This document shows, one piece after another, positions 24,310 to 64,000 of a stretch of 64,000 nucleotides of DNA. The stretch comes from Lutjanus erythropterus (Eukaryota; Chordata; Actinopteri; Lutjaniformes; Lutjanidae): contig CM034608.1 in NCBI GenBank assembly GCA_020091685.1, positions 4,130,751 through 4,194,750 of the forward strand. Reading direction: 5' to 3'. The translations under genes were made by a program, and so were the position numbers. Each line of letters starts with the position of its first letter. Within the stretch, counting starts at the first letter, position 1. A model generated the notes under the pieces. The model was not told the DNA's origin. It did not search any database and saw only the letters and a list, made by a program, of their open reading frames with translations.

Positions 24310-26413
24310 TCAACTCTTTTCCTCTTCTTCTTCCTCCTCCTCTTCCTTGTCTTCTTCTTTAGTGTCTACATCCTGTGTTGCATTATTGGTCATCTTCCAG
24401 CTGAGAGTCCATTCACTCTTTGGCATACCCTGTTTTTCCTGCATCAGTCCCAGGTACCTCTGACTCCGGTGCTCGGTGGAGAAGCACACCACCTTGTCCT
24501 CATCCGGCTTCTTCCGACAGATCCTCCATGACTCCTTCCAAGCTCGCCACTCCTCTGTCTCCTCTTCCTCCGCTTCCTCCTCCTCCTCTTCAATCCCGTC
24601 TCCCATTCTGTGAGCCACCGCCACCATCCACGACTGCTTCCAGGAGGAGAAGGAGGTGCTGAGCTTGTGGAACTGCAGATGGAGCGGGACGGTGGGCTTC
24701 CGTTTGGTTCGTCTCTTTTCTTTTCCTGCTTTGTTGCCCACTTTCTCTTGGCTGTTCTCCTCTTCTATTTTGATCGTCATCTCCTCTTTGTTGGTCTTTT
24801 CCTCATCATCTGCTTCATCCTTTTCCTTCTCATCCACCTCTTCATCCTCCTCCTCTTTGTCTATTTCTCTTGCTTCATCCTCCTCATCATCCACTTCTTC
24901 ATCCTTTTCATCCCTCTCATTTACTTCCTCCTCCTTATCTACTTCTTCTTCCTCTTCCTCATCGACCTTTTCTTCCTCCTCATCTTGGTCTTTTTCTTCA
25001 GCTCCATCCTCCTCATTGTCCACTTCATCCTTTTCATCCTTTTTATCGCTCTCATTTACTTCCTCCTCCTTATCTACTTCTTCTTCCTCTTCCTCATCGA
25101 CATTTTCTTCCTCCTCCTCTTTGTCTTCTTCTTCAGCTCCATCCTCCTGATTGTCCACTTCACCCTTTTCTTCCTTTTTATCCCTCTCATTTACTTCATC
25201 CTCCTCCTTGACTCCTTTATTGTCCTCCTCTTTCTTCTCATCTTCATCTGCTTCACCCTCCTCGTCCTCTTCTTCCTCCTCCTCTTCTTCTGCCTCTTCG
25301 TATTTCTCCCCCGTACCTACACTATCTCCTTCGTCATCTTCATCTTTATTTCTCATCTCCTTGTCCACTTTTTCTTCCTTCTCCCTTGCTCCTTCATCCT
25401 CCTCTTTGTCTGTTTCTTTCTCTTCCTGTTCTATAGTGCACTCCTCGGCAATGAACCACTCTTCATCTGTGTCTTCATCCTCCTCCTCTTCCTCCTTCTG
25501 GTCAGCTTCTTTGTCCTTATCCTCCTTGTCTACACCTTTACCCTCCTCCTTTACTTTATTCTCCTCACCCTTTTCATTAACTTCTTCATCCTCCTCCTCC
25601 TCCTCTCCTTCTTCTTCATCTTCCTCCTCCTCTACATTTTTGTCCTTGTTTTCGTTGTCCTCCTTATTTGCTTCTTCATTCTCCTCCTCCTCTTCTTCCT
25701 CCTTCTCAACTTCTTTGTCCTCTTCCTCCTCTTCTTCTTCCTCATCTTCCTTGGCTACTTCTTCGCCTTTCTCCTCCTCGTCTGGTTCTTTGTCCTCCTC
25801 TTTTTCCTCTTCATCTGCATCCTCTTCATCATTTTCTTTTTTGCGTACTTGTTTGTCTCTCTCCTCCTTTTGTTCATCCTCCTCCTCGTCTTCATCCTCT
25901 TCCTTGCTTTCCTCCTCCTCATCCAAGTGTCTGTCCTCCTCCTCTTTCTTATTTACTGCTTTGTCCTTCTCGTTGTCGACTTCTTCGTCCTCCTCTTCTT
26001 CCTCCTCCTCCTCATCAAGTCCTTCATCCTCCTCCTCCTCCTTATCTCCTTCATCCTCCTCATCATTCTTTTTAACTTGTTCTTGCTCAATTTCGTCAAC
26101 ATTTTCCTTCTGCTCCTCCTCCTCTTCATCTACTCCTTCATCCTCCTCATTGTACACACCTTCATCCTCCTTTTCCTCTTCCTCCTCTGCATCTTCCATG
26201 AACTCCTCCTCTTCTTCCTCCTCTTCCGTCTCGTCCAGTTCGAACTCTTCTGGTGGGATCCATCTTTTAGGAATCTTCCAGGCCTCATTCCACTCCTTGC
26301 TGTTTGCAATTTTATCTTCCAGGTCTGACATGAGGAGGAAATTCATGGATTTACGTCTCGTCTTCAGCAAGTCGCTGTGCCGATGATGGGACTGTACTGA
26401 ACCTCTGCACCAC
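24310..26413 (-). CDS. W1 coding exon 5 (last): W pair, acidic block, three C-terminal W pairs
   Basis: The exon opens after acceptor ccacag with G completing an Arg codon, then WCRGSVQSHHRH. After EWNEAW (pair at 395-399) comes about 500 residues of Glu, Asp and Lys with Val and Asn, then a basic patch (KEKRRTKRKP) and pairs SWKQSW, WKESW and WTLSW, ending in another poly-Glu tail and TGA at 24312-24310. The opposite strand shows long Ser-rich and Leu/Phe-rich open frames that are shadows of GAR codons. Confidence 0.8.
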
Positions 26414-29400
26414 CTGTGGAGACAGTTGTAGTTTGGGTTTATTTTGATCAGATAAGTTTGATGAATGATACAAAAAACTGAGCATGAAAGTTCAAGCTCG
26501 ACCTTGTGATGATGTGATGGGAAGTTTTTTTTTTCTCAATGCAAGCATTCTTACTATTTTCCATTTAAAGGACATTAACACTAAAATATTAACTCAAGAA
26601 TCAATTTGACCAACACTGATTTTTGAAGATAAAGTTGGGCACACACTGTATGATTTTAGAAATGTTGTTTAATTTCAGCTCCTTCTGTGCAAGTAAATCG
26701 TCTGCAATTTAAAGCCAAAGTTAACGATTTATGTGCTCACACGTTTGTGTAAAATATAAAATAAAATGGCCCGTCTGCCCCTTAACATTTGTCAATAAAG
26801 ATTTGTTTTAAAGCTCTGAAGCAGGTGAAAGTTTGTTTGCTTTGTTTGCATCGTCTGTGCCACCCTGTGTGCTGAAACACAGTAAAAGAAATAGTTGTAG
26901 TTTTAAGTTTTGAAATAAACTTTAAAAAGTTTTGCCGACATATAATATTTAGTCCTGATAATTTACTTTTCTTTTTTAGATAAACTCAAATCTTTGCATT
27001 TTAGAAAAGCGCAAAAAAAAACAAAAAAAAAAAAACAAAGAACTATTTTTTATGTTTTTTTAAAACTCAAAGACTTAAGTTTTTCTAAAGATGAAGAGTT
27101 AATTATCTCAACAAAAGATTAGTTGTTGATAAAGCTTCTTCAGAGCTTAAGATTTTTAAAAAAATATATATATTGGGGGGGTTATGCCTTTAATACAGAT
27201 GTGAATGAGGAATGACATGTCAAGCTGTCATGCTCACTCTTCTGATAAAGACGATCTGACAGCTGTGATCCCAGCCATGCTCACTTGGCAGGTCTGTTTA
27301 GATTTATTAGGCTTTATAATTTTTTTTTTCCTTATTAGTGAGCTTATCTTTGAAGACACATGCACACCCGACTGTTTAACGTTAATGAAAAGTGTTCTGT
27401 GACACACGCGGATGCTTTTAACTTCAATATTTACAATTTATTGCTGGTAGAAAATATGTTCAAATAAAACTTAACTAATCCACACTCCCGTGTGAGGAAG
27501 AGAATGACCATAACTGAAGGTGTTTTGTGATTGTAAAGATATGTGTGTGTTTCGGTCAAACCTATCTTGTGCTGAAAGACCACAGACTTTGCGTTTTGAC
27601 CAGGTTTTGGCTGGTCTAAAGCGCAAGCGTTTTTTACCCCACTGTGCTGAGCACAAGATAGCAAACACGTCAGGCCATGCCTTCGTTTTGCCTTCATGTT
27701 TAGCCCTCCTGCCCACAGTGGCACAGACCCAGCACGAGTGCGTTTGCTATCTTACGCTCATGGCAAGAATGGCACTTGCACTGGTGTAAGATAGCAAAAC
27801 CGCTTGCGCTGGTGGCACAATGGCTTTGCGTTGGGTGTAAGATAGGGCCCTCAGTGTCAACCCACCTGATCTGCTGCCTGTATCCCCAGCAGGAATTCCA
27901 GCTCTTTTCACGTTCTTCTGCTTCCTCAGGGGGAGCTGCAGCCAGCATCCAAGATTCACTCCATCCGGTCAGGAACACATCATTTATCCACGCTATCTCT
28001 GTGGGTCCAGGGCTGTAGTAGCTTTCACTTAGTGTCTCGTAGTAGTCTGAGTAGTACTGTGCTTCAAATTCTAACCCAGACAGCTGCCAAGCATCGTACC
28101 AGTCCCAGTCCCAGTCCCAGGGCAGGTCCTGTTTGATGATTACAACATACATTTTTATTAACAATAATAAAAATGGATGTCCTGATTGCTCAGTGGTCAT
28201 GTAGCACCTGACCTTTGACCTGACATGGTCAACAAAGTCAACAGAGTAAAAGATAACAAGAAAACTATAAATGCAATGATGTTGATCCCCACCTCCTCCT
28301 CTAGTTCATCGAGCTGCTCAGCCTTGTTGCTGAGGTATGGTTGGTAATCAGGCCAGAGATGATCCCAGTCCTGTTTCTGCTGTCTGAAGGGAAAGTTCAT
28401 GATTTTCCAAGTACCAGCCCAGACAGGAAGACAATACGTCTCTATTACAGGTTTGGAAGTCATTTTTCTTTCAAACAAAACCTCCCACTTGAAGTGTTTC
28501 TCTTCAGAGGGCTCAAACTGGGCAGGAGTCTTCGCCTGAAAACAGAAGAAAAAACAAAGCTGGTTTAACTGCTTAACTTTGTACCCATCCTACAGTTGTC
28601 TCTCTTCTCTTGTAGTCTGGGGAGGTTATGGATGAATCAGACTGAGACAGATGTTAGTTATAAGCTGTAGAACAGGTGATTGGCAGTACACTACAACAAC
28701 ACAAACTCACCTGGCTGGACAAACACTGCTTGGGTTTTTTTTAGCGGAGTGTGGAAGGACATGACTGAAGTGTCATGGTCACAGATCGTTATTTCTATTT
28801 GGTTTTCAGTCTCAAGAGGGCAGGTCTTACCTGTCTTAAGTCTGCTTGAGATATGAAGCAACTGACACCGTGACGGATATTGCACAATAACCCTCACTGG
28901 ACTGGAATAGGCAGCCACTGGATGGACAAATCTGGTTTTGGGGTATACCAGAACACCACATGTCTGAATTGCAAGCACTGTAAAGTTCGCTTGAAAGTGG
29001 CATGCTGCTAATCAGGGCATAAAGCTATTGAGACCGTGATGTATAATGCATGATAACCTTCATCCTGGACTAGTTCCTGTCTGTGTCTACCTAAAGAAAA
29101 TGAAAAGCATGCAAGCCCTGTGCATTATCATTGGAGTGAGAAGAGAACCGGAGCAGACATGAGCAGGCTGGCCCAGCCACGAGGTCGAGACAGCAACACT
29201 GAAAAATGAGTGAAGCAGTGGCGTCAATTTTCAGGTAAGGCCTCCATCCTTTTCTTGTAATGGCAATCAAGTCACGTCTGTATGTATGGCCTGTTAGTAG
29301 CTGGTACAACTACAAGACTTTAACAGTCATTAAATCCCTGTAGCTGATGAATGCTAACAAAGTGTGGCTTATTTCTGAATTACTAGTTTTTGAATTTCTT

Positions 29401-30307
29401 TCAAATACGATCAGGTGTACACTGCAAGATAAGACCGCTATGTGCAATGCCAGGCTGGAGTTGTGCACAGCATTGAACTGGTAATGAATCTGGGTTTGGG
29501 ATTTTCCAGAACACCACATGTCTCAGTTGTGGATACTGTGCAGGTTGCTTGCAAGTGGCATGCTGCCAATTAAGGCATAAAGCAACTGAGACCATGATGT
29601 ATAATGCATGATAACCCACAGAACTATTTTGGTTTGTTTTCTGTTTGTCTCTATTGGTTAATTTCAATGAAATTAAAGTGTTAGCAGCATTGAACAGGTC
29701 TTTGCATCCATCAGGGTGTGTGCCTGCCATGACCCATCATCAGGCTGGGCATTTGTTAAAATACAATGCGTTGAAAGTCCAAAAATTAACCACAAAGTAC
29801 TGACTGATAGAGAGCTGGACATTATGATGTCACAGTTAAGTTGGCCTTTGACTTTTTGGTTAAGGATAACTTAAAGAACCTGTGGCGATGGGGGCGCCCA
29901 CCCTTCATCAGCTGCCTCAGCAGGTGCCTTCAAGCTACTTGTTTGGTTCCTTGATTGGCTTCTTGATTGGCTACTTCCAACATGGCAGCCAGGCTCAGTT
30001 CTTCACTCCAGAATCTTTCATCTTTCAGACCTCTTTTGCAGCGACTGACACTAGTTAGGTGCTATTTTAGATGTCAAGGTAGTGTTAGAGACACTTATAC
30101 AAATAACAGTTGTATTCCAGCTGTTACGCAAAGGCTTTAAATCTGTGTTTTTGTTCTTTTTCACTTCTCCCCAATTTAACTTAATTGAAATGAATGATTC
30201 AAGACTCAGAAGTGAAGTTATAAATTTGAGTTAATTTGCTAAAGATAAATTTACATTGTGTAGAGTTCACGATTTGCAGACTTGTGCAGACTGGACAAAA
30301 GCTTTAA

Positions 30308-30358
<51 letters not shown>

Positions 30359-33300
30359 TTGGTCTGATGAGCTAACTTTCAGATTTGAGAGTTCCCACCC
30401 CTCAGACACACCTTTTTGCTCAGCCAGGAAGGGAACTGTCCCAACAACCACAGTAAGTCAAAGACAAAGAAACACATTTAATATAACAGAAAAGAGTGTG
30501 TTTAACCCCACAGTGTGAGTATGTGTGCACTCCATTTAAACAGTGTGAGGATACAAGCAAATTAACAACATCAAACAAACTGTGTCATGTGAATTGTGTT
30601 GAATTGGGTGTGTTTGACTGCAGATGAAATGAACTTGAGCAGGTGAGTGTAAATGGCTGTTAGTATGTGTGTCTGTTAGCATGGCTGTTAACATGGCTTT
30701 TAACATGGCTGTTAGCGTGAGTAGCTGTTAACATAGCTGTTAGTATCTGTGGCTGTTAGCATGGCTTTTAGCATGTGTAACTGTTAGCATGTGTGAGGAG
30801 GACGAAAAAGCAAATCCAATAGGGTCCTTGCACAATTTGGTGCTTGGGCCCTAATGAAAACCATGCAAACTCAGTGCATGATTATTGGAGTGAGAAGAGA
30901 ACTGGAGGAAACATGAACAGAGGGTGTTTTGCTGTAATATATTTTGTATATTTTCCATAGCTTTTAATAATAACAACTTGACTTCACTTTGTGCGGATGA
31001 AGAGTCAAATGATGCAACAAACGCCCCTTTTAATGTGAGTGCGCGTGAGTCTGATGAAGAAAGCCTGAGTTAACAAAGTCATGACCACTGTCATGATGCC
31101 TGTTATCTCTGATCGGGGTTTTAGGTTTTGTTGAGCCAGCTCATGAAAAAAGTCGAGTCAACAACACCGAAATGAATAAATTAATGGCGTCAAGTTTTTG
31201 GAAAGGCCTGCATCCTTTTCTTATACTGGCAACCAAGGCATTTCTATATGTATGGCCTCTTAGATGCTGGTACAACTATAAAACCTAACAGTAATTAAAT
31301 CTTAGTAGTTGGTAAATGTCTTCCAAATATGATTAGATATATGTAAGTCAGCGTGTGCAGTGCCAGGATAGAGTTGTGACTCCCGACATTGCAACACAAA
31401 TATCTGTACTTTCTATTCCTTACAAACAAGCTTGATACTCAAGTGTTAACATAAGACAAAAACAACATAAAAAGACTTAAGACGAAAACGACATAAAATA
31501 CATCACAATACGAAAACAATGTAAAAAGACATGACACATGACAAAAAAAGACAAAACACTAGAACATCGTAAAAAAGACTTAACAAGACAAATACAACTT
31601 AAAAGATGTAACAGGATGAAAACTAAAAGATCTAACGACAAATCAATGTTAAAGGTTTAACATACAATGAAACAAGTCGAAAATTCTGTAAAAAACATAA
31701 CATGACAAAATGTAAAAGACTTAACAAGATAAAACTTACATATAAGATACAACAAGATGAAAACAGCATGCAGGGGTGAGGGTTTACTGAGCCTGCCAAA
31801 TATCACCATCAGGGCAGCATGCTGTCATGTCTGGAATATAGAGTAAAAGTAATTTCTGCTCAGATATGAAGTGTGTTGCTTTATGTCTGTCATTCTCTCC
31901 CTCTTTCTCCCATTTTATTTTAACAGTTATTTTTAACAGAATAGTGCACATCTGTAGGGCTATACTGTATTTTTTAAGCTTGATGTTTGGCTGCTTTGTG
32001 TAGAAAAGGAACGAGTCCACAGTTTCAAGATTGAACCTTTTTTGTCATCTTTTGAGCACCAATCAGCTGAGCTGACAGAGCACACTGCTGCAGCCAGCAT
32101 GTGTGTGTGTTTGAGATGGCGACAGAGAGAGAGGCAAAGGAATGTCGGATGATTATTGCACACAGTGTTTCTGAGAGTCATTAATACTTCCTGTGATATC
32201 AATCAGATTTTGTGGTCAGTGTACAAACACATGCATCCATGGCCACTCTGAAACCACAGATCCTCCCCACAACAAATCCCAGTTTAACTCCTCCTTACTG
32301 TAGCTGTGTGCGCTCACTGCTGATGCTGTTCGTTACTGCAAACATGTACACCTGACTTGACCTGGCTCAGCACTCTTAACCTTTCCCGTATACGTCATAC
32401 TGCGCCCGTACACCAAAACAGCCAGGGAGCTTTGTGGCTCACCAGAGTTGTTCATGTACCTGAAACAAGACAGTGCACTCAGTAGTTGTTAGCCTGTTAA
32501 CCAGTGGATATCAGCCTTATTCCATAGATTCTTGCTAAAGGACCTGAAGACACTTGTTGCTGTGGATACCAACACATCACTTGGCTGAACGGAGATGATT
32601 TACAGATGTTTCATGTGGCTAATAAACTGCTTTTATAAAGTTATATGAGGCAACATTTTCATGATTATATATCTAGTTATATTTAATTAAATCACAAGAA
32701 AATCTAGGCTGTAGAGCAGAAATGACAAGCCATCTATTTATTATTTTATCTTATTTCTTTTCTACCTCCAAATAATTATTCTCTATTGTGATAAATTAAT
32801 TTAATTTTATATTTTAATTTTCCATCGATAGAAAAAAAGAAAAACAACATTATTCACAATGATGGTGTTGAAAATTAAACCTTTGGGATGTCCAAATACC
32901 CCGGTATAGCATAACACCCATATATAGCCCATCCATCCATCCATCCATCCATCTTCTTCCACTTATCCGTGGCTGGATCACAGTGGCAGCAGTCTAAGCA
33001 GGGATGCCCAGAAGTTCAGTTGCTTATGACAACCCTTGCTTTGAAGATGTTATGTTGCATACAGCTTAATATTTTTAGAGGGTAATAAAGGATACTGCTT
33101 TACTTCTACCTCTTACTCACACATTTAGTTAGTGTTCCCACCACTCTTGTGACCTAAAAGATGTGCAATATGAAATACTTAACATACTGTATATATTTAT
33201 AAGTCTGAACCCAGGTATGTGTCTGAAGTTAAAGTTTCCAGCGCTAGCCAAATCAAATATTCCCTGACACACTTTTCCCAAAACATAGCTGAAACCATAT

Positions 33301-36300
33301 CTGAAAACTGACCAACAGTCTGAGTTTCAGTATCTTTTAAAATGAAGCCGTGAGTTTGTGCAGTCTCAGTACCTGTTTCCAGGAGTGACTCCATTCCTCA
33401 GCAGGAGACGCCCAGTCAGCCTCTGATCCGTACCCGTCTGATTTGTACTTCCTGTTTTTCGTCAGCTCTATGGTTGTGAATCCTGCGATTGTGGGTTTTG
33501 TCTCGTTGGCTGTCAGGTAAAGATACTGTGGGGGCTTCAGGCTCATCCAGGAGTCTTTCCAGTATATACGGAACGCATCCACCTCGACTTTGCGTTTCTG
33601 CCTGCTAAGTTTGGGTGAAGGCGGTTTCTTGGGAGGAGGCGGAGGAGGAGGCTCGGGTTTGGCTTTGGGAGGAGGGGGGACAACTTTGAATCTGACTTTC
33701 GACTTGTTTTCTGCTTCAGGTGGGCTACTGACGAGTTTGGAGTAGTCTCCAGGGGCAACAATCGACCAGTGATAATTCCACTTTGAGCGAGTTCTGCAGA
33801 TTAAAAAAAAAAGACAAAAAAATCTACTCATTTGTTGTCAGAAGGAGTAGATGCTGAGAAACGTAGCTCTGACATGTATGAATAAGTCCAGCAACTCATT
33901 AAAATGCCCTCAAGTATCGCCAACATTGCTGTGGTGGCTGTGGTTCAACTGAACACAGATGTTCAGGTTCTTGAGGATTAGCAGTCGCCTTCAGAGGTGG
34001 CAAAAGTCCACACATTCTGTACTCAAGTAGAAGTACAGGTAACGGTGTGAAAAAGACTCTAATAGCAGAAGTAGTGATTCAACTTCTTTACTCAAGAAAA
34101 AGCAGGAAAGTACAGACTCTGAAATGTCAAAGTGTAAAAGTCGCCTTCTGAAGGACATTTCTACTGACTGTTTCTGTGCAAAGATAACTGAACCTCATCT
34201 TTTCTTCATGGTCAACTATCTCTCTTTGTCTGTTTTGTCTTGTTACATTTTTATTTATATTGTTTTCATTTTGCTAAATCTTTTACATGATTTTGTCCTG
34301 TTGCATGATTTTCATCTCTTACGTCTTTGAAATCATTTTTGTCTTATAATATCTTCTTATGTTGTTTTCAAATTGTTACATCTTGTTACGCCATTTTTGT
34401 CTTGCTTCTGTCTTTTCATCTTACTGTCTTTAACGTCATTCTCCTCTTTTTACGTCGAATCTGTCTTGTTAGATCTTTTATGTCATTTTCATCTTGTTAC
34501 ATCATATTTTTCTTGTTACATCTTTTACATCATTTTCGTCTTGTTGCGTCTTTAACATGATTTTGTGTTGTTATATCTTATGATGTTTCTGAATTGTTAC
34601 ATCTTGTTACGTCATTGTTGTCTTTATGATGTTTTCATCTTACTATGTCTTATTATGTCATATTTTTCTTGTTACACCTTTTACATCATTTTCATCTTCT
34701 GTATTGTTGTGTCATTTTCATCTTGTTAGATATTTTACGTAGTTTTTGTCTTGTTACGTAATATCCGTCCTGTTACACCTTTTATGTTTTGTCTTACTAC
34801 CTAGTTTTAATTTTAGTACATCCTTCATATGATTTCCTTTTTGTTACATCATATTTGTCTTAAGTTTTGTACATCATTTTCATCTTATATATTGTTGCGT
34901 CATTTGAGTCTAGTTATATCTTTTGGCCTTTTACGTCATTTATGTCTTGGTACGTCTTTGACATGATTTGGTCTTGTCACGTCCTCATGTCTTTCACACA
35001 ATTTTCATCTTATTGCGACTTGTTACATCATATTTGTCTTGTTACACCTTTTACATCATCTTCATCTTATGTATTGTTGCTTTTTTTCATATTGTTACAT
35101 ATTTTACATATTTTTTCTCTTGTTATGTCTACTTACATCTTAAACATAATTTTCATCTTGTTACATTATTGTCATGTTACACCTTTTAATGGCATTTTCG
35201 TCTTGTTACATCTAGCAATGTTATTTTCATCTTGCATTGAAACTGAAGTAACAGCCTGTTTTGAAAATGTAAGGAGTAGAAAGTTCAGATATTTGTGTTC
35301 AAATGTAGGGAGTCAAAAGTTGTTAGAAAAATAAATCTTCAAGTTAAGTACACATACCTCAAAAATCTACTGACGTACAGTCAGTATTTGTACTACCATA
35401 GTATTTGTAGTATTTATCCATGTTTGCATAGTTTTTAAACCGACAGTTCATCCCAAAATCAAAACTACATATTTCTCCCCTGGCTTGTAGTGCTGTTTAA
35501 TCATCTAGATTTTTTTTTGGTGTGAGTTGCAGAGTTTTGGAGATATCAGCTGTAAAGATATCTTCATTCAAAAATTCAAAACAAGTGTCTCTGTCCAAAA
35601 TTCATGACCCAGTTACTCAAGATAATCCAAAGACCTTGTTGTGAGTAGTTTTACGTGGCAACCACTTTCTTTCTATTGGAAAGATTCTGAAGTAGATTTT
35701 ACTTCAGGAAAAAATGAAGTTCCTACATGAAACTGCTTACAACAAGGTCTGTGGGTGAACTTGAGTAACCAGGTTATAATTTCTGTAAAGAGATACTGCT
35801 GATGAGTTTTTCATATTATTTTTTCTTTTTTCACACTTTGAGCACCACAAGCCAAGTGCCATTTTGTCCTATTTTATCAATGAGAAGGCGGACATCTCTA
35901 CAGCTGAGATCTCTAAAACTTTGCACCAAACACACACCAAAATACACTGCCTGGCCAAAAACAAATCACACCCTCTAATATTTCATTTAATTTTTTAGTT
36001 TTGATTACAACATGCACTCGCCATAACATCGTTTCAATAAGCTTATGCAACATCACAGCATTTATTTCTGTCCACCTCTCTTCTTACTGTGATGCCCCCA
36101 TCACTCTGGAACACAGTCTTCCTGGAGGATGATGGTTCTCCACTATCCTTCCAGGTTTTAATAATGTGTTGGACAGTTCTTAACACAGTTTTAGTAGTTT
36201 CATCAATCTACTTAGCTGTTTTCTTTGCTTGATGCAGGTCAATAATTTGACTCTTCTGAAACAGAGTAACATCTTTTCCTCGACCACAGGATATGTCTTC

Positions 36301-36663
36301 AAACATGTTAAGAAATGAGAAGCTGCTCACTGCATCAGTTAGAGTTCAATAACTTGTTACCAGCTGAAACATATTAATCACTGCAGTAATTATCCAATGG
36401 AAGGATCTGAACTATTTGATTAGTTAAATTCAGGTGGTGACTTTTTATGGCCTGGCAGTGTAGTGTAGATGGATAAATAGCACAACAGCCCAGAGGAAAA
36501 ATATCATAAATAAAATCATGTGTTCTCACATGTTGTGGTTACTTTTCTTCCTGAATTCAGCGTCCTGTTTGTTCTGCTCTGCCACGATCTGAGCTTTCTG
36601 CTCCCATTGGTCTCTCAGCCGCCCGTTGCCGAACGTCCTCCTCTCCTCCTTTTTTGACAACAT
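24310..36663 (-). CDS. W1: tryptophan-pair (W-x3-W) protein with a large acidic domain, five coding exons, 1054 aa
   Basis: Exons (minus strand): 36663-36530, 33793-33373, 28535-28293, 28128-27866, 26413-24310. All junctions are GT-AG and all phases agree (2, 0, 0, 2). The protein has twelve W-x3-W pairs, at about residues 50, 123, 179, 224, 242, 276, 322, 343, 395, 945, 979 and 1022, often followed by a basic or bulky residue (KW, SWK, SWM, SWR). A proline run lies at 84-105 (PPPPKAKPEPPPPPPPKKPP) and an acidic E/D/K block at about 410-930. There is no signal peptide, membrane segment or known domain. In a helix the paired Trp would sit on one face; that is inference. It shares the repeat signature with W2 (61545-64000). 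No function is known to me. A possible extra first exon is noted at 42372-42378. Confidence 0.8.
24830..25230. repeat. 135-bp (45-residue) minisatellite within the W1 acidic block
   Basis: The text 'ctcatttacttcctcctcc' starts at 24916 and 25051, and a close variant at 25186, exactly 135 bp apart. In the protein each unit reads EVNERD...DEVDNEEDGAEE...VDEEEEEEVDKEE with a few changes. An in-frame period multiple of three keeps the reading frame when copies are gained or lost. Confidence 0.9.
26930..27847 (+). repeat. Interspersed repeat in W1 intron 4, related to 48760-49755
   Basis: The copies share successive segments: 'aatttacttttcttttttag', 'ataaagacgatctgacagct', 'ggtctgtttagatttatta', 'ccacactcccgtgtgaggaa', 'tgctgaaagaccacagactt' and a 3' part rich in 'aagatag' motifs. 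The homology stops near 27847, only 18 bases from the W1 exon 4 donor at 27865. No intact ORF is present, and the superfamily was not identified. Confidence 0.75.
27866..28128 (-). CDS. W1 coding exon 4: DW repeats and three W pairs
   Basis: Acceptor atcaaacag, donor ATCAG|gtgggt. It encodes DLPWDWDWDWYDAW (a short W-x-W ladder ending in a pair), a Tyr-rich acidic stretch (QYYSDYYETLSESYYS), then WSESW and WNSCW. The (GAC TGG)n ladder is a 6-bp microsatellite in the coding strand. Confidence 0.8.
28293..28535 (-). CDS. W1 coding exon 3: W pairs WAGTW and WDHLW
   Basis: Acceptor tctgttttcag, donor GAGGAG|gtgggg, phase 0 at both ends, 81 codons. It starts AKTPAQFEPSEEKHFKWEV and ends in LDELEEE. 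Confidence 0.8.
28916..31380 (-). repeat. Locally duplicated blocks in W1 intron 2
   Basis: Three blocks recur. The segment at 28916-29062 (…agaacaccacatgtctga…) returns at 29490-29620. 29101-29350 (…gtgagaagagaaccggag…, …tggcctgttagtagctggta…) returns at 30857-31330. A (CA)n tract lies at 30310-30357 and 'gctgttagcatgg' tandem repeats at 30655-30795. Minus-strand ORFs inside are not exons. Confidence 0.7.
30310..30357. repeat. (CA)n microsatellite
   Basis: Twenty-three or more uninterrupted CA units inside W1 intron 2. Confidence 0.97.
31440..31775. repeat. Degenerate tandem repeat, inverted relative to 34210-35240
   Basis: Units such as acaaaaacaacataaaaag alternate with 'cttaacaagac'. 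Reverse-complemented they give the 'cttgttaagtcttttac' type text of the larger array in intron 1, so the two arrays are one satellite family in opposite orientation. Confidence 0.7.
32927..33025 (+). repeat. (ATCC)n plus non-LTR retrotransposon 3' fragment
   Basis: A short ATCC tract is followed by 'cttcttccacttatccgtgg' and 'ggcagcagtctaagcaggga', a phrase I recognise as typical of a common fish LINE terminus. A different piece of a similar element lies at 57972-58165. Confidence 0.55.
33373..33793 (-). CDS. W1 coding exon 2: three W pairs and proline-rich linker
   Basis: Acceptor tttaatctgcag, donor AAACAG|gtactg, 421 bases. It encodes KWNYHW, the linker VVPPPPKAKPEPPPPPPPKK and a basic patch (KLSRQKRKVE), then YWKDSWM and EWSHSWKQ. 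The proline run resembles SH3/WW/EVH1-ligand sequences, without a diagnostic core. Confidence 0.8.
34210..35240 (+). repeat. Satellite-like tandem array in W1 intron 1, about 25-30 bp unit
   Basis: Variants of ttttcatcttgttacatc and 'ttacgtcattttcgtcttgtt' repeat for about 1 kb with no spacers. Flanks at 34010-34130 carry the 'actcaagtagaagtac' motif also found at 6050-6190 and 56740-57290, so the array probably grew inside that element. ORFs inside are Phe/Leu/His-rich artefacts. Confidence 0.85.
35440..35941 (+). repeat. Dispersed fish repeat next to a Tc1-like element
   Basis: Segments 'cagttcatcccaaaatcaaa', 'ctggcttgtagtgctgttta', 'ggtgtgagttgcagagtttt' and 'aagaccttgttgtgagtag' follow an order I recognise from other teleost genomes. 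It is non-coding. Confidence 0.55.
35942..36467. mobile_element. Tc1/mariner-like non-autonomous element
   Basis: The left end is acactgcctggccaaaaac and the right end ttatggcctggcagtgta, inverted and flanked by TA on both sides, as for Tc1/mariner insertions. About 520 bp lie between them, with no intact transposase frame. It sits in W1 intron 1, 60 bases from the exon 1 donor. Confidence 0.8.
36530..36663 (-). CDS. W1 first certain coding exon
   Basis: ATG at 36663-36661 encodes MLSKKEERRTFGNGRLRDQW and then EQKAQIVAEQNKQDAEF. Donor AACAT|gtgaga is the only candidate that keeps frame with exon 2; the upstream AAAA|gtaacc would shift it. The exon is preceded by an acceptor (tgtcttttag) at 36674-36665, so at least one more exon lies upstream. 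Confidence 0.75.
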
Positions 36664-51166: not shown

Positions 51167-52245
51167 TCAAGTATTATCATCATAGTCGCTGTTGTCGGTG
51201 TCACTTTCGGAGGTGCAGTCGAACTCATCCCACCATGTGAAAAATTTGAAGCGTCTCACTTTAACTTTCTGTCCACCCTCCTTTCTTGACCTCTTCCTGG
51301 ACGGGCCAGACAGAGGGTCGTCTTTAGCAACTTCAGCGCTTGCACTTGCATGTTCGGCTGCAGGTTGGCTATTCCCAGTCTCGTCAGTATTACTAAAGTC
51401 ACCGCCAGTGTTGTCAGTCCCACTATCAGAGGTGCCATTGCATGGTGCCAAGCGTTTCCTGCTCTGCTCTTCAGCTTGTCCATCCTCCTCTCTCGACCTC
51501 TCCCTGGACGGACTGGGCAGAGCGTCGTCTTCAGCAACCTCAGCGTTGGCACCTGTGTGTTGAACTGGATGTTTTACAGTATTTTTGTCATTATTATTAG
51601 CGTTACAGTGTGTGTCAGTGTCACTATCAGTGTCACTATCAGAGGTGTCATCTTGCAATCTGAACCGTTTCCTGCTTCTGTTTTCGATGCCCGCCCCATC
51701 GTCCTTCCTTGACCTCTTCCTGGACGGTCCAGGCAGAGGGTCGTCTTCTTCTGCAATCTGGTTGACTCCAACCCCATCACTAACACCAACCCTGATGTCT
51801 TCTGCATGTTCATTATTGCCCTCAAAGTTGTCAATGTTGCCATGGTTTTCGTTGTTGTCAACATTGCCATGGTTTTCGTTGTTTTCAACGTTGCCAGGGT
51901 TTTCGTTGTTTTCAACGTTGCCATGGTTTTCGTTATTGTCAGCGTTGCAATGGTTTTCACCATTATTATCATGGTTGACATAGTTGACAGCGTGTTCTTC
52001 GTTCCGAAGTTCGTCTGGCCAAACTAGATCCAGCAAAGCGTTTATCCACTCAAAGTACCCTTGGATAAGTTGACCAGCTGGTGGCTGATTGTGTGCTGGG
52101 ATATGCGGAACGTTTGGGCCTGTAAGATCAGTTAGAGAAATATGTTAGAATAGAATTCATTAGAAATGATGATGAAATGTTTGAAATGATGAAACAAATA
52201 CTTACGATTTCCATCATTGTGCCCAGCATCTCCTGTTCCTTCCAT
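51167..52245 (-). CDS. Repeat protein with GPSRKRSR basic blocks and SDSDTD acidic blocks, two coding exons, 330 aa
   Basis: Exons 52245-52206 (MEGTGDAGHNDGN) and 52119-51167 join across an 86-bp GT-AG intron with matching phase. The protein starts with a short W/L-rich segment (GYFEWINALLDLVWPDELRN, about 33-52). Asn-rich nine-residue repeats (NVENNENHG) follow, then three units of about 65 residues, each with AE-x-A-x-DDPLPGPSRKRSR, a second basic patch and TSDSDTD. KRSRK/RKR clusters fit nuclear targeting, which is inferred. Similar GPSRKR linkers occur at the start of some fish multi-copy proteins (for example Pim-like kinases, as recalled), but no kinase or other domain follows here. No family is recognised. 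The stop falls between repeat units. Confidence 0.65.
51840..51962. repeat. 27-bp coding minisatellite (nine-residue NENHGN units)
   Basis: 'gttttcgttgttttcaacg' followed by 'ttgccatg' repeats about four and a half times at 27-bp spacing within the gene at 51167-52245. The period is a multiple of three and keeps the frame. Confidence 0.9.
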
Positions 52246-52321: not shown

Positions 52322-52353
<32 letters not shown>

Positions 52354-54212: not shown

Positions 54213-54245
<33 letters not shown>

Positions 54246-55505: not shown

Positions 55506-55683
55506 GTGCTGAGGCTCCATGGTCAGACCCTTCATGTACTGAACACTTTGCACCAGCAAGTGGCAGCAGATTCCTCAGACATCCAGGGAGAGTCGGGCAG
55601 CAAACATTTTTCCAGCAGTAGAATTATTTTATCATTTGGATTTCTGTCCTTGCTGTGCACAGCTGTCTGTACCAGACATCACC

Positions 55684-56731: not shown

Positions 56732-57292
56732 CAGGAGTGTAAAAAGTATTCAGATCCTTTACTGAAGCAAAAGTACTAATACCACACTGTAAAAATACTT
56801 CACTACAAGTAAAAGTCCTGCATTCACAAAACCTTACTGAAGTAAAAGTATGTCAATATTATCAGACAAATGTACTTAAAGTAAAAGTATTCATGTTGCA
56901 GTAAAATGTTCTGTCAGTGTTATTATGTCTTTTAGTTTCTGGATTAATATTATTGCATTAATGTTTCTGCTGTTTACTGCTGTAGATGTTTAAGGTTGAG
57001 CTCATTTTAACTACTTTAGAGGCCATTGTTGGCTGGTTTAATCTACAGCAATGCATCATGGTCTATAAGACCATCAAATGTATGTAGCATCACTGTCCTG
57101 TGAGAACCATGTATCTCTGAAAAGTTAGAAAACAACCTTTTTTCAGTTTTATGGGTTAAAATGTTAAGTATTTACCTCTGGGATGTAGTTTAGAAACATA
57201 AAGTTGGATAAAATGTAACTTAAGTAATGTACAAAATAAGTACAGTACTTGATGTAAATGTACTCAGTTACTGTCTACCACTGATTACAGCT
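56732..57292 (+). mobile_element. Dispersed element with aagtaaaagtact motifs
   Basis: The left end (gagtgtaaaaagtattcaga) and the right end (actcagttactgtctaccac) bound about 560 bp that contain repeated 'aagtaaaagtact' and 'gtacttaa' phrases. Shorter relatives lie at 6050-6190 and 34010-34130. I recognise it as a widespread teleost repeat. It is non-coding. Confidence 0.65.
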
Positions 57293-57780
57293 CTGAAGTA
57301 ATGAAAGATGGGAATTAATGGATTGATATTGACTGATGATTGATTAAATATTGAATTTAAAATCAATTAACTGACTAATTACCAGGAAGCAGACCCAAAG
57401 CTTAGTGTTATGTTTTAGTATTTTCTACATTTTATATATTCTATTTTTTTAATTTATGTTAATTATGTTAAATAATTTATGATATTCACTTACCTTAAGA
57501 TTGTACACAAAATATTCTATTCAATAAATATTGGGGTTTTTTGTACCTCATTCTTTTCTATATAGATCTTCTTATTCTTTGACTGACAGATTGAACAAAC
57601 TGTTTTAAAGGAGGAAGGACTGTACTGGGAGCACTGGGTTGTCAGGTGTGACTGTGCGAGTCAGTCAGGAGGAATTTAGCAGAATTTTCTGAAGAGGAGG
57701 ACAGACAAGGATATTTGCTGTTACTATCTTATTTTCTGAAGGCTGACAGCTAAAGTTTTGACCAGTGGAGTTATTATTTA

Positions 57781-57942
57781 GCACAAGAAAAAGCAGTGGA
57801 CTGTGAACTCTCATCCTCAAACAAGCGAAAACAGAAAATAAGGACTAACATTGGTGTGGCCTTTACCAGATGGAAATCTCTGATGAGGGATAAATGTTTT
57901 CACAGTGATGCCAAAGTTGCCTCTTTTCTGCTGGACAGGTAA
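57781..57942 (+). pseudogene. Short coding-like fragment (RTNIGVAFTRWKSL ... ASFLLDR)
   Basis: One frame reads KQKIRTNIGVAFTRWKSLMR, DKCFHSDAKVASFLLDR and then TAA, where an overlapping gtaatt could be a weak donor. Basic residues, a W-containing helix and a FLLD ending look protein-like and resemble fragments recalled from fish transposon-associated exons. The end 'ctgctggaca' recurs at 58320 and 59757. Confidence 0.3.
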
Positions 57943-57971
57943 TTCATCCTACACACGTAATTGCACTTTAT

Positions 57972-58165
57972 TATGAGATCTGTGGCCTCCTCCCAACTGG
58001 ACGTGCCTAGAACACCTCTTTCAGGAGGCGACCACATGGCATCCTTTCAAGATGCCTGAACCACCTCAGCCAGCTTCTTTTTATTCAAAGGAGCAGCGGC
58101 TCTACTCCAAGTCCCTCATGGATGACTGAGCTTCTCACCCTATCCCTGAGGGAGATGCCAGCTAG
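57972..58165 (-). repeat. Non-LTR retrotransposon fragment
   Basis: 'ctcccaactggacgtgccta', 'ggagcagcggctctactcca' and 'gcttctcaccctatccctga' match the layout of a common fish LINE end. Strand is uncertain. The (ATCC)n-associated piece at 32927-33025 is probably from a similar element. Confidence 0.6.
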
Positions 58166-58306
58166 CTTACATCTAAGCAAGCATTGATCCAATGATGAAA
58201 TACAGCAGGTATTGTATCTACATGATAGATGATAGAAATACACTCATTAATGTGGAAAAAGGAAGTGCAGGGACTCGATTAGTGCAGCAGACCTTGAGAC
58301 CTTGGG

Positions 58307-58680
58307 TTCTAGTTTCCTGCTGGACAAACAGCAGGGGAAGGGGGATTATGTATTGTCATGAATGACATTTAGCCTTCATTCACACACGTACTGGTAAATT
58401 GGTGAGAGTAGTTGGTGATTATCTCTGCATGACAGTGTGATCAGATAAGTATGAAGTATGCTGAGGTGTAATGAGAAGAGCATTCTGGGAATTCGCTGTC
58501 CCCAACGGACCTTCAAGTGGCTCTGAATGTTGGGTCGTGACCCACATGTTCTTCAGCAGTGTGAAAAATGATAAAGAGATGGCTGTGGTTGATAACAATG
58601 TCATAGCTTTCGTTTCTGCAGCCTGACATTTGTGCAGATTTCCTGTATTTAGGCCAAGACCCAAACCATCTGAGTGGGCA
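58307..58680 (+). repeat. Local duplication, copy A
   Basis: It aligns with 59747-60108 from 'gttctagtttcctgctggac' through 'cccaaaccatctgagtgggc'. Copy A has a roughly 35-base stretch (around 58490-58530) reduced in copy B. Spacing is 1440 bp. Confidence 0.85.
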
Positions 58681-58779
58681 AAGTGGTACTTAACTACAGT
58701 ACTTGAGTAAATGTACTTATTTACATTCTACCATAAATTGTACTGCACATACAGGAAATTACAAAAATTTCAAACCTGC

Positions 58780-59625
58780 AATTAAAATGTGAATAATGTA
58801 ACAATCAACAGTATGAAAAATAAATATATTACCTTAAAAATGTATTCCAATCCATTTACTAATTACCTGATAAAATGTAGTCAGTTACCTAATCTAAGTA
58901 TCACAATATTAAAACAATGTAACATGATTACTTTATGTTACTTTTGGTTTACTTTAATACAAAGTATGTTCAAAATGTTAACCCTAATATAATGTTTTAT
59001 GTTTGTGAGGTCTATTGTTTGGTCAGTTATTCCTTCCTTTGTTATGCACTAATACACATTTAAATTAATAGAGGGTAATTATCACAGTTAAATGTTCACA
59101 TTTCCTGTAAACTGTTGTAAAGCTATTCTGGGACTTCTTGTTTTTACCCACCCATCCTGGTCATGAGCGTCACATACAATTGCAAAATATTTTTCAGTGG
59201 TACATAGTGTTTACACATTAGCAAGCGAATTGAAGTTTATATAGCTAATGTTAGCAATTGGTTCTACCTGTAATATTATAAGCAGAGGGCAGAACTGTCA
59301 CTGTCCCGTGATGATGTTCCTTGTTTCTGATTTAGAGATTTACTGACGATAAACTGACGGTGAAATATTTGTCTAGTGAAGCATTTTCTCACCCAACACC
59401 ATTATGGTAATAAAATAATCTGGTTTCACAGAGACCAGAGTGGTGCAGTAAAATGTGTTTAGTGTTATAATGTGTGCACACTGCACATGGTCGTATATCA
59501 TTCTTTATTTTTAAATGTACTTTAAAATTGTAATCCTGCTAATAATCCCCATCTTTACCAAACATTACTGTAATCTGATTACGTCATTACGTTTTTTCTG
59601 TAACTGTAATGGAATACAGTCACTT
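58780..59625 (+). repeat. Interspersed repeat between the duplicated blocks
   Basis: Related to 1390-2130 (see there). It ends with 'taatctgattacgtcattac'. No ORF. Confidence 0.5.
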
Positions 59626-59746
59626 TCTTTTTGCTTTAAATCCTGATTATGTAATCCAGGTACATGCAATCCGTTACTCTCCAAAACTGACCACTTGTCA
59701 GAGGTTTCATTTGAACAAATGGTGCATTGTGAACTGTGTTCAGTGT

Positions 59747-60108
59747 TCTAGTTTCCTGCTGGACAAACAGCAGGGGAAGGAGGATTATGTATTGTCATAA
59801 AGGACATTTAGCCTTCATTAACACACACAGTGTGACAGGTCAGTATAAAGAGATATGGGTTTATGAGTGCATCAGGCAAGTATGAAGTATGCAGAGGTGT
59901 AATGAGAAGAGCATTCTGGCAAACTGTCCCTGATGGGTTGTGACCCACATGTTCTTCAGCAGAGTGAAAAATGATAAGAGATGGCTGTGGTTGATAACAA
60001 TGTTGTTAGCCTGTCATAGTTTTTGTTTCTGCAGCCTGACATTTGTGCAGATTTCCTGTATTAGTTCTTGGGCCAAGACCCAAACCATCTGAGTGGGCAA
60101 ATTGTAGT
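59747..60108 (+). repeat. Local duplication, copy B
   Basis: Partner of 58307-58680. It carries an extra 'gttgttagcctgtcatag' relative to copy A. The frame FLLDKQQGKEDYVLS at its start echoes FLLDR at 57930. Confidence 0.85.
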
Positions 60109-61420
60109 TGTGCCTTTTTAAATTCCTCTGCATCCTTAGCCTCGTGTTTTGATATAATAGATTTTGCTGACAAGCCGCTTATTTGTAACTATCACCTCTT
60201 AAAATCATGGACTGCTGTTGTTCAAAACTGGGAAAGAGCCTTTTGGAGAACCTCATTAAGACACAAAGACCTTGATGAACATTTGGAATCAAAATTGCAT
60301 TTTTCTGTGATTGGCTGGTGAGCACTTCTGTTCTACAGGTCACTCAGAGATCCACTAATTGCCAGCACATGTTGGAAAGCCACCCGCCTCCATCTCAACA
60401 ACTCTTTGTTGTTGGCATGTACAGTCATTTCATGCTCAACTGCTATCCACACACATCCAGTTTTGAACCATTCAGTAGTTGCACCTTAACAGGCTACCAG
60501 ATATTAATATTAATATTCCTTTCTGTGTTTACAATAATAGCCAAATACCTTCCTTATTTATCTATCCTTTACATTATTCAAATTAATGTTACACTGCTTA
60601 TAGTGTTGAATGGCAAAAGCTCACTGTCTTTTAAATATATTTTTGCATATTTGCTTTTCTATGTTTTATATTTTCATACTTATACATTTTTATGTCCCTG
60701 TTAGCACCTTGGCTAATGACAAACAAAATTTCATTCCTGTGTACACTGTCTATGGAAATGACAAATAAACAAGTTTAACTCAAGTAGTAATATAGTGTTA
60801 AATTTAATTTTTGAATTTTGCTCATGTGAAAAATGATCCAACCCATGACTCTAAACTTGATGTGAGCCAAACTGCAGGTTTTCTGATCTGTTTCACCTCT
60901 ACTGGCCACCAATCAGAGATCCTGACAGTTGGATCGTTTGCTTTAGTCAGCAGTGAAATCTGATCAAATCATACCCACCCAGTCCTGAAGAAGTGGATTA
61001 GCTGAGCTATCAGTTTTAAACTCTTAATAATAAGATACTTTTTCCAAACATTAACTTTATTGCTTATTTAGTCATAAATATTCAATGTTATAAAGAAATA
61101 CTTCAAACCACATTTTCAGATTTAACCTCTTAGTAGCCTATTAATACACTGTGGATAATTTTAGACAAACTATTAAGGTATAAATTTTGTGGAAGTACCA
61201 TTATGTTAATCATTTGGTTGTACATAACTCCTTATATATAATGAGTGTATTTTGTGTTACAGTGTAAAAATTCACGCAGCAATTGCCAATATTTTAAATC
61301 CTTTAATCATAACAGTAAGTGGCATTGCATCAACTTTTATAAACACACATTTCAACTAAGAACCATATATTTTCAACTAGTAGGAAAGAAAGAAAAGCTG
61401 CAGGTAGTACAGAATTTAGT
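60109..61420. other. Intergenic, no supported gene
   Basis: ORFs at 60043-60321 and 60318-60704 have no recognisable domain. The second is driven by AT-rich, Phe/Leu-coding DNA. No splice-supported exon was found. Confidence 0.5.
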
Positions 61421-61423
61421 GTT

Positions 61424-61429
61424 TTTATT
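61424..61429 (-). terminator. Candidate poly(A) signal of W2
   Basis: AATAAA on the minus strand, about 115 bases after the W2 stop codon, a normal distance for a short 3' UTR. Confidence 0.5.
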
Positions 61430-61544
61430 TACTGACATGGTTTGTATGTGCCCTGTTTAATGCTTCAGGTTATCTGATGTAAGATATCTGAAGAAAGTGT
61501 TCCATCTGATTTGACTGAACCAAAAGTTGACTGAGCCATGACTT

Positions 61545-64000
61545 CTACTTGGCCTTAGGGCCATTCATTGGTGGATATGGTGGAATGAGGAACTTCCATG
61601 ACTTATTCCAACCTGAGAGTGACTTGGTTTGCTTCAAACTGCTTGGCTGGACAAAGAACCTCCAAGATTCTGCCCACTCTTCAAAGAAGTTGTCTTCCTC
61701 AACCATCTTAGGCTTCTTTCCTGAAGTAGGGCCTCTCATGGGACGTGGTTGTGTTTTACCCAACAGGTGGACTCCTGCCCACTTCCTTTTGTCAATGTCT
61801 TTGTCAATGCTGGCGTACAAATGCTCCTTCATTTTTCTATGTCTTGTAATAATAACTCTTGGGTCAACAGATTCCTTTGACATAGTTTTGTCTTTGATCT
61901 GTACACTGGCCCTCTGCAGGAACCGCATGGAGTTTATCCAAAGCTTGAAGATTGCAGGGCTACTGCAGAAGGTGGCGATGGTGGTGTTTTGTTTGTTCTT
62001 TCCTCTTGACCACATGACTGCATAGTGACATGGGTTAGGAAAGGACTCAACCCAGGGACGCTCCACCTGGGGCATGGGGTTGGCAATCCGGAACGACATT
62101 CCCCACTTAGATCCATGCCCATTGGTAGGGGTATGATGCTGCTGAATACTGCTGCTCATGCTTTTCCCAGACATCCCTGGGTTCAGAAGTGATCCATTTT
62201 TCCATGAAACGTTCCACTGTTTCTCAGGATATCGTTCCCTGAACATCTGATTATCAAAGGATCGGCTCATTTTAGCTTGGGCTTTCTGTAGGGACATCTT
62301 CCCTCTCCGGTGGTGGATCTCCATTAACATATAGACCTCGTTCTCTCTTGGCACCCGCTCAGCCCAGAGCTCTGTGTTAAAGCCAGATGACTTCCAGGCC
62401 TCTCTCCACTGGGTTAGAGATGGCTTATCATGGTGGAACTGAGTTTCTGAGAACATCCAGGCATCCTGCCAGTCAAAAACGGACCTAGCATGGACTGAGT
62501 GTCCAACTGACCTGTGTGTGTGTGAATTGTCAGGATATTGGGAAGCCATACTTGACCTTCCTTGGCTGGTTTGTGCGCTACCTTGCCCTTGTGATCGCTG
62601 CTGGGGCCTCGCAAACCTCCATGATTCTCCCCAGCTTCGCTCCCCAGTTGGCCCATTCTTAGGGAGTTCAACAGGCGCAAAGTGGTTCTGGTCCCTTGCG
62701 CGGTCCACTCGGATTTGGGGGATGGTGGGCCAACCCTGTTGCCACAATTCAGGCTCCTGATGCAGAGGCTGACAGTTGAATTTCCATGAGTCTTTCAGGT
62801 CTGAGGCATTAGGCTTCATGTCTCCTGTCTTCTCAGATGATCTGAAAGGCCTTGAAGGGTCAGGCCTCATTCTTCTTCTCTCCATCCTCATTCTGTGCTT
62901 CAGTGCCCTCCAGGAATCCCTCCACTCTGGGGCAGGTAAGACAATTTCCAGGTGTCTCAGGCGAAGCAGGTTGGATTGGGTGAATTCTCTTCTTGGGTGA
63001 TATAACACACTGTGTTTCAACTGCTCATAGGATGGGTCTACTTTATCTGAAGTTGGATAATGCCCTTTCTCCACCTTCTGGGCCTCCATCTTTGGTGGCG
63101 AGAGCTTCAGGACTTTCTCTATTTCTTCACATGGTTTAGAGTTGTTTTTTGTCACCTGCCACGCCTTGCTCCACTCAGAGAGAGCCTTAAATTCATCACA
63201 GAGTTGCATGTATAGATCTCTGTACTTCTGCTCATGATACACAAACATGTCTTCATGGAGACGTGACTCTTTTTGATGGCTGTGATGACTATAGGTTTCA
63301 CCATGATCTTGCCTCTGAGAGGGATCAGCATTCTTGTGGTTGTTGGAGACCACCATGGCTGCTCTCCATGACTCGGCCCACTCAGTCGAACTGTGAGATT
63401 TTTTGACTTTGAGCAACTTGGAGTTGTTGCATCCATGGTGGTTGGCAAGCCTCCAACATTCTTCCCAATTGGAGCTCATCTTTCTATGATTATCTTGCTT
63501 GTTAGCCATAGACTCATTCATTTGACCATTATTTTCGGTAAAACCAACCTCCTGACTTGCTGGCTTAGTGGATCTCCATGAGTCGCTCCATTCTGATGAG
63601 CTCAAGGCCTCATAGTGATGCTGAGTTTCCATCAACAGGGTGAACAATCCAGATTTGTGGACATCCTCTCCATCTACTGTATCCCCCCTCTTATTCTTTT
63701 TGTCAGATTTTCTCCAGGACATCTGCCACTCCTCAGTGGGGAGACTAAAGTCTAGCTCTTCTGACTCCACCATCCTATAGTCAGGTTTCTTCCAGAGATG
63801 AAGGCTGTGAGGATCCATCAAGTTGGGTCCGTTTAGCCAAGGTTTGCCTGGTTCAGAGTAAGGCTGATGAGTAGCAAACATCCAGCACCTGCCCCAGCCT
63901 GGTGTAGCTTCAGCGCCTTCTTCTGCTTGTGGCAAAGATTTGTTGTTCTTCCATGACTTTCCCCACACCATAGCAGAAGGTTGATTCTGGGTGATGGACA
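61545..64000 (-). CDS. W2: tryptophan-pair (W-x3-W) repeat protein, C-terminal part of over 800 aa, 5' end outside window
   Basis: A single frame is open from the right edge to TAG at 61547-61545. The first Met in view is at 63971, but codons before it are also open (SITQNQPSA), so the gene probably continues outside. Numbering from that Met, 808 residues carry fifteen W-x3-W pairs at 3, 26, 82, 128, 169, 198, 267, 350, 410, 447, 501, 522, 586, 766 and 788, with consensus E-W-x-x-S-W-R/K-F (EWAESWRF, GWNKSWKF, EWRDSWRA). At least four more sites have one Trp replaced (LKDSW 392, WGMSF 623, WVESF 640, WINSM 678). Between pairs lie 15-80 variable, polar, basic residues. No signal peptide, membrane segment or known domain is seen. 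Unlike W1 it lacks the acidic block. Its function is unknown. The two genes lie on the same strand, 25 kb apart. Confidence 0.85.
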   Translation of the reverse strand, partial: SITQNQPSAMVWGKSWKNNKSLPQAEEGAEATPGWGRCWMFATHQPYSEPGKPWLNGPNLMDPHSLHLWKKPDYRMVESEELDFSLPTEEWQMSWRKSDKKNKRGDTVDGEDVHKSGLFTLLMETQHHYEALSSSEWSDSWRSTKPASQEVGFTENNGQMNESMANKQDNHRKMSSNWEECWRLANHHGCNNSKLLKVKKSHSSTEWAESWRAAMVVSNNHKNADPSQRQDHGETYSHHSHQKESRLHEDMFVYHEQKYRDLYMQLCDEFKALSEWSKAWQVTKNNSKPCEEIEKVLKLSPPKMEAQKVEKGHYPTSDKVDPSYEQLKHSVLYHPRREFTQSNLLRLRHLEIVLPAPEWRDSWRALKHRMRMERRRMRPDPSRPFRSSEKTGDMKPNASDLKDSWKFNCQPLHQEPELWQQGWPTIPQIRVDRARDQNHFAPVELPKNGPTGERSWGESWRFARPQQRSQGQGSAQTSQGRSSMASQYPDNSHTHRSVGHSVHARSVFDWQDAWMFSETQFHHDKPSLTQWREAWKSSGFNTELWAERVPRENEVYMLMEIHHRRGKMSLQKAQAKMSRSFDNQMFRERYPEKQWNVSWKNGSLLNPGMSGKSMSSSIQQHHTPTNGHGSKWGMSFRIANPMPQVERPWVESFPNPCHYAVMWSRGKNKQNTTIATFCSSPAIFKLWINSMRFLQRASVQIKDKTMSKESVDPRVIITRHRKMKEHLYASIDKDIDKRKWAGVHLLGKTQPRPMRGPTSGKKPKMVEEDNFFEEWAESWRFFVQPSSLKQTKSLSGWNKSWKFLIPPYPPMNGPKAK

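Follow-up and report, generated by a model that had tools for sequence, protein, structure and literature searches.

Which proteins do two adjacent genes encode when both products carry the same pair of tryptophans again and again, and what might such a repeat be for? We focus on this question at a locus of Lutjanus erythropterus, where two neighbouring genes on the minus strand, here called W1 and W2, fall within a window of 64,000 nucleotides (C18:4130751-4194750 of a 937.6-Mb genome). Extra sequence of 60 kb upstream and 30 kb downstream was added to form a 154-kb locus, and coordinates follow the numbering of the window also where they lie beyond it. The repeated element is W-x3-W, two tryptophans (Trp) in i/i+4 spacing, and an earlier inspection by a model working from the letters (the sequence-only reading) had proposed an undescribed protein family built on it. 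The two genes share a motif around this pair, and they appear to share an N-terminal module interrupted by an intron in the same place. The reading that we favour is that both encode FAM240-family proteins with multivalent docking tails, and as a whole we place it just short of an even chance.

Splice signals and reading frame establish the predicted gene models. W1 occupies exactly the extent that it had been given before, from 36663 to 24310 on the minus strand, in five coding exons with an intact frame of 1,054 amino acids and a stop at 24310; its four introns are all GT-AG and their phases are all compatible. For W2 the 5' end had been missed. Its large exon reaches 64263, past the window edge, where it begins after ...ttttccccacag; exon 1, at 68720-68584, is beyond the window too, 4.3 kb upstream of the large exon. 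This first exon has an acceptor 11 nucleotides ahead of an ATG and carries the reading ...MDKSALT; its phase-2 donor is in frame with the large exon, giving a protein of 951 amino acids. The features inside the window are as follows.

36530 to 36663, minus strand: W1 coding exon 1, first part of the putative FAM240-like module; ATG at 36663, acceptor 8 nucleotides before the ATG, phase-2 donor AT/GTGAGA.
33373 to 33793, minus strand: W1 exon 2, with the second Trp of the putative module (fifth full codon, inside KWNYHW), a Pro-rich stretch and the pairs YWKDSW and EWSHSW.
28293 to 28535, minus strand: W1 exon 3, with the pairs VWAGTW and DWDHLW (motif scores of both below 0).
27866 to 28128, minus strand: W1 exon 4, with WDWDWDWYDAW (hexanucleotide repeat), GWSESW and SWNSCW (motif score of SWNSCW below 0).
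24310 to 26413, minus strand: W1 exon 5, with EWNEAW, an acidic stretch of 485 residues, then SWKQSW, AWKESW, EWTLSW and the stop.
61545 to 64000, minus strand: window part of W2 exon 2 (61545-63998 open to the window edge), with 15 W-x3-W pairs, two degenerate copies, a basic chain and a stop at 61545-61547.
10674 to 10937, minus strand: CFC-domain stretch of tdgf1 (Pfam CFC, expectation value E 3.6e-18); the gene sits between W1 and a plain fam240.

The N-termini are best understood from this plain gene. It lies about 16 kb past the tdgf1 CFC stretch on the same strand, and its two exons (exon 1 from -5398 to -5519, exon 2 from -13928) encode 81 amino acids. A second plain copy was found on contig 9 by a genome-wide search (C9:424248, E 8.8e-4), with exon 2 at C9:431986 and a length of 77 amino acids. 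Both we take to be FAM240 genes (FAM240A/B/C), the first with the human order of TDGF1 and FAM240A in view; literature searches on tdgf1 synteny gave nothing useful, nor did those on FAM240A/TDGF1/LRRC2 among the matches listed. No Pfam model matched the plain copies or the start of W2, and the family features used here come from the two plain copies in the same genome rather than a curated model. Each of the four genes compared (the two plain copies, W1 and W2) has a first coding exon that opens 0-11 nucleotides before the ATG, a W-E exactly 24 codons ahead of a phase-2 intron, and a W as the fifth full codon in the exon that follows. The module common to the family members here can be written as [LIM][KR]xxWEx[RK], then a phase-2 intron and, in the exon after it, a W at codon 5.

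How firmly each gene can be tied to this module differs. In the 154-kb locus, a tblastn search with the first-exon peptide of plain fam240 identified the exon upstream of W2 (68684-68565, E 3.5e-5), and a profile of the two plain copies gave the start of W2 32.6 bits, a score reached by 0 of 4,998 scored shuffles. With an ungapped score anchored at the intron, comparison with the two plain copies gave 152 for W2, where shuffles peaked at 62, and 62 for W1, where they peaked at 60, neither gene's score being equalled in 50,000 shuffles; when W1 was compared with three members, the plain copies and W2, 2 of 50,000 shuffles scored as high. The exon 1 of W2 was itself located by searching for FAM240 likeness, unlike the donor of W1, which was chosen on frame grounds in a five-exon model built before the link to FAM240 was noticed. 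From these sequence comparisons, W2 very probably carries a FAM240-like module and W1 is likely to carry one, so that the FAM240 identity appears well supported for the former and fairly supported for the latter. With 1,054 and 951 amino acids against a plain size of about 80, the two would therefore be tailed variants rather than plain members.

Past the module, the proteins are marked by their Trp pairs. We count 14 in W1, or 12 with the stretch WDWDWDWYDAW taken once, which was the number first reported; three of the 14 lie inside this stretch, a TGGGAC hexanucleotide repeat. W2 has exactly the 15 that had been read from it, in 817 amino acids within the window, where 39 residues are Trp (4.8%). 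The claim that this density exceeds chance holds for both genes: against the 15 pairs of W2, 20,000 shuffles average 1.8 and never exceed 8, and against the 14 of W1, 5,000 shuffles of the W1 pieces average 1.07 and never exceed 7. Among W-W spacings below 10 residues, W2 uses i/i+4 only, while the gaps from the start of one pair to the start of the next span 21-180 residues. The second aromatic position is nearly invariant, with 29 W-x3-W (14 in W1, 15 in W2), 3 W-x3-F (1 and 2) and 0 W-x3-Y (0 and 0). The first pair of W1, KWNYHW, corresponds to the second, conserved Trp site in the putative module and has a background-like score against the tail motif. Because this pair belongs to the module and WDWDWDW is a simple repeat, the tail pairs of W1 number at most about 11, and 7 of these have a motif score above 0.

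The motif around the pair reads [E/D]-W-x-[E/D]-[S/A/C]-W-[K/R/M]-hydrophobic-A, and position -4 is often S/P. Columns were compared with flanks over 27 pair instances (65 columns, p<0.01, by residue class or by single residue). By residue class, the columns that stand out besides both W are -1 (acidic), +2 (acidic), +3 (S 15, A 5, C 3), +5 (K 8, R 8, M 5), +6 (hydrophobic), +7 and +9, and none of the 65 does so beyond -1 to +9. Position -4 (S 7, P 5) reaches p 0.006 by single residue only, among the 65 columns tested; several far columns, such as -30, -22 and +34, also fall below 0.01 by this measure, in part because the null omits Trp while neighbouring pairs place Trp there. The combination of S/T/D/P at -4 with E/D/Q at -1 occurs in 9 of 26 pairs, where about 1.2 would be expected from residue frequencies of 0.25 and 0.18 and about 6.5 from the marginal counts of 12 and 14. 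This pattern may be read as a helix capping box, and each motif as a short helix complete in itself that would carry the two rings on the same side. In W2, two clear degenerate copies have each lost one Trp (LKDSW, score 9.7, and WGMSF, score 6.3), and half-pairs scoring at least 3.0 number six in W1 and W2 together, compared with an average of 2.4 in shuffled proteins. The Trp sites of the module score like background against this motif (percentiles 0.2 to 0.65), and by this scoring the idea that the tail repeats are amplified FAM240 motifs was rejected.

Between the pairs there is little that is alike. W2 compared with itself shows no spacer match apart from self at E<1. With the motif residues fixed and the rest shuffled, the similarity between W1 and W2 is not significant in the N part (545 of 1,000 shuffles as high) and marginal in the C part (14 of 1,000). 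The spacers are thus essentially unrelated, as had been noted. A longer conserved repeat unit, hinted at by one W1-W2 alignment with 33% over 61 columns, is not claimed, 14 of 1,000 fixed-motif shuffles equalling it. The serine ahead of the second Trp (+3) is encoded by TCA, TCC, TCT, TCG and AGC, and this mixture of TCN and AGC codons suggests that the residue is kept, not the DNA. It had been proposed that selection acts on the pair alone; conservation is indeed centred there, but a few flanking positions from -1 to +9 are kept too, and selection seems to act on the pair together with a few neighbouring residues. As for the chains, their aliphatic fraction (VILMF) is low (0.08-0.19), and their net charge is -249 for W1 and +38 for W2, the latter being basic overall. 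The acidic stretch in exon 5 of W1 consists of 485 residues, 62% of them Glu+Asp, with a net charge of -236. The charge and the low aliphatic content would fit disordered chains. As a separate observation, the Glu/Asp-rich stretch of this exon (24824-26061) is made of several overlapping tandem-repeat arrays, so its length may differ between individuals.

Is there a family to which such proteins already belong? Nothing in Pfam, NCBIfam or the PDB approached a cut-off (lowest E 0.016 in Pfam, 0.094 in NCBIfam and 3.4 in the PDB, the last with a repeat profile), and viral, prokaryote and phage collections searched with W2 gave nothing. The idea of an undescribed family survives to this extent, although it is not a standalone one, as both proteins appear to start with a FAM240-like module. 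Own-genome searches used W2, the W2 module and W1 residues 1-411 as queries, with the best candidates alone scored. W2 found only itself; W1 residues 1-411 found their own five exons and eight weak matches (E 0.02-7.1), two of which were inspected and showed no relation. A large family or mobile element was accordingly set aside, the searches with the three queries having given no further tail copies beyond weak matches. In addition, a DNA pattern for EWxxSW[K/R] was run genome-wide and met 88 sites, against 29 for a reversed control. Six are in W1 and W2, and outside these genes no two sites are closer together than 50 kb. Of the other 82, eight were viewed with about 1.1 kb around each, and they have one pair apiece in an open frame. 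The pattern recovers 5 of the 15 W2 pairs and 1 of the 14 W1 pairs; since it misses most known pairs, this is no proof of absence, and a W1-like gene could escape it. Sixteen of the 88 sites share the identical 21-mer GAGTGGAACCTGTCTTGGAAA, which is therefore probably a dispersed repeat. Literature searches on WxxxW spellings gave no matching repeat family among the matches listed.

Taken together, W1 and W2 would each begin with a small two-Trp module (W-E, phase-2 intron, W) and continue into a long and probably disordered tail, in which [S/P]xx[E/D]Wx[E/D][S/A/C]W[K/R/M]-hydrophobic-A recurs about ten times in W1 and fifteen times in W2. Each copy might fold into a short amphipathic helix on binding, so that its two Trp rings, on the same side, would be offered to a groove in a partner domain. 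Repetition of the motif would then provide avidity, with one protein gathering many partner molecules. A short docking helix used many times was already the suggestion of the sequence-only reading and seems the most economical one. Multivalent docking as the function of the tail is nonetheless a tentative proposal, to which we give somewhat less than an even chance.

Several results weigh against the FAM240 reading and the docking tail. In the genome-wide search, the plain fam240 query gives W2 exon 1 at E 0.15 only, and W1 is absent from its matches. The reverse genome search with the module of W2 returns its own two pieces and two weak matches (E 8.0 and 8.9), the plain copies being absent. 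When alignment is not anchored at the intron, W1 fares poorly: its start scores 5.3 bits against the profile of plain copies, with 107 of 4,994 shuffles as high, a further profile comparison is equalled by 178 of 4,997 shuffles, and a pairwise alignment by 436 of 20,000. The tail is also not visibly an amplified FAM240 motif, because the Trp sites of the module do not resemble the tail repeats. Within the tails, leave-one-out motif scores are below 0 for VWAGTW, DWDHLW, WYDAW and SWNSCW in W1 and ELWQQGW in W2; WYDAW is the pair in the hexanucleotide repeat, and the other four lie outside it.

This weakness of the W1 module by free alignment raises the question of whether the two genes are related at all. 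They could have converged on one motif and lie side by side by accident, as spacers with almost no similarity and structures that differ after exon 2 (five coding exons in W1, two in W2) would allow. Yet they are neighbours on the same strand, and a phase-2 intron interrupts both at the same point, the W-E before it and the W after it being equally far from it in each gene; we regard such a coincidence as very improbable. It is likewise improbable, if a little less so, that the tail arose by expansion in one lineage and has little functional value, its pairs kept by recent duplication and without a binding role. Simple-repeat expansions do occur in W1 (WDWDWDW and the Glu-rich stretch), and no copy was found elsewhere in the genome searches made. 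This account is difficult to reconcile with spacers that are nearly unrelated while the pair, S/A and K/R persist with different codons, which suggests selection on the protein, or with the 951-amino-acid open reading frame of W2.

The remaining explanations grant the pairs a binding role of another kind. The Trp pairs may be aromatic stickers of a condensate-forming scaffold, binding each other, RNA or charged partners in place of a dedicated groove, and the acidic W1 (-249) and the basic W2 (+38) might then co-condense. Opposite net charges, low aliphatic content and many dispersed aromatics would suit such a scaffold; the fixed i/i+4 spacing and the fixed E/D, S/A and K/R positions are more than stickers need, which makes this account unlikely. 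Other proteins with short repeated aromatic motifs decorate filaments, a topic on which the literature gave nothing useful among the matches listed, and the repeats could similarly decorate a periodic polymer, microtubule or actin filament, with one subunit per pair. Many copies in one chain and the variable spacers of W2 (gaps of 21-180 residues), which suggest flexible linkers, are compatible with this. The same spacing is irregular with no lattice period visible, however, and the Pfam and PDB searches made gave no cytoskeletal family, leaving a filament role quite unlikely.

The surroundings of the two genes hold other frames. Upstream of W2 and beyond the window, a GIMAP/AIG1 GTPase frame is found at 85354-86157 (minus strand; Pfam AIG1 E 4.4e-69), and two further frames look AIG1-like by eye (89353-89967 and 93356-94039, plus strand). 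Also beyond the window, a frame at 103848-104327 (plus strand) resembles, by eye, the J domain of DNAJC25. Between W1 and W2, an open frame of 325 amino acids (51167-52144, minus strand) contains a 27-base tandem repeat with NENHGNVDN-like units and repeated PSRKRSR-like segments; its best Pfam E-value is 0.65.

How do W1 and W2 compare with systems already described? FAM240 is the closest at the N-terminus, where the likeness lies in the module, the phase-2 intron and the plain copy near tdgf1; the difference is that the plain copies, at 81 and 77 amino acids, are without W-x3-W tails. FAM240 proteins are very small, the function of FAM240A/B being given as 'unknown' in one table (PMC11797053), and FAM240C is counted, in a passage of another paper, among newly called coding genes (PMC6886504). 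Long relatives with a strict repeat would offer a handle on a partner, and a domain that bound one W-pair peptide would give FAM240 relatives a first molecular function. It is conceivable, though we lean somewhat against it, that W-pairs make up a multivalent docking module not described before, and that FAM240 represents the small proteins in a wider vertebrate family, the long ones each assembling many molecules of a partner. W1 and W2 also seem to offer a clear example from nature of a short linear motif in many repeats, with selection holding two Trp and a few flanks and nearly all between them replaced.

The W-x3-W spacing is also met in the V protein of paramyxoviruses, whose W-X3-W-X9-W motif is described, in a passage of one paper, as important for blocking host signalling (PMC11054343). 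That is a single motif with a third Trp, whereas a W nine residues after the pair occurs in 1 of 15 pairs in W2 and 0 of 14 in W1; the spacing within a Trp motif is the likeness, no other similarity having been sought. The nearest published mechanism that we met is human PEX5, in which, according to two papers, eight WxxxF/Y motifs lie in a disordered chain, some of them in amphipathic helices, and are bound by the N-terminal domain of PEX14 and the SH3 domain of PEX13 (PMC11024197, PMC8086558). W1 and W2 do not repeat the PEX5-type WxxxF/Y; their second aromatic is nearly always W, preceded by S/A and followed by K/R/M. Their N-termini are unlike that of PEX5, and Pfam scans that covered W2 and, piece by piece, the exons of W1 showed no match to its C-terminal TPR domain. 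The two are not PEX5, and the resemblance is a likeness only: many diaromatic i/i+4 motifs in one chain, which in W1 and W2 would probably be disordered as well.

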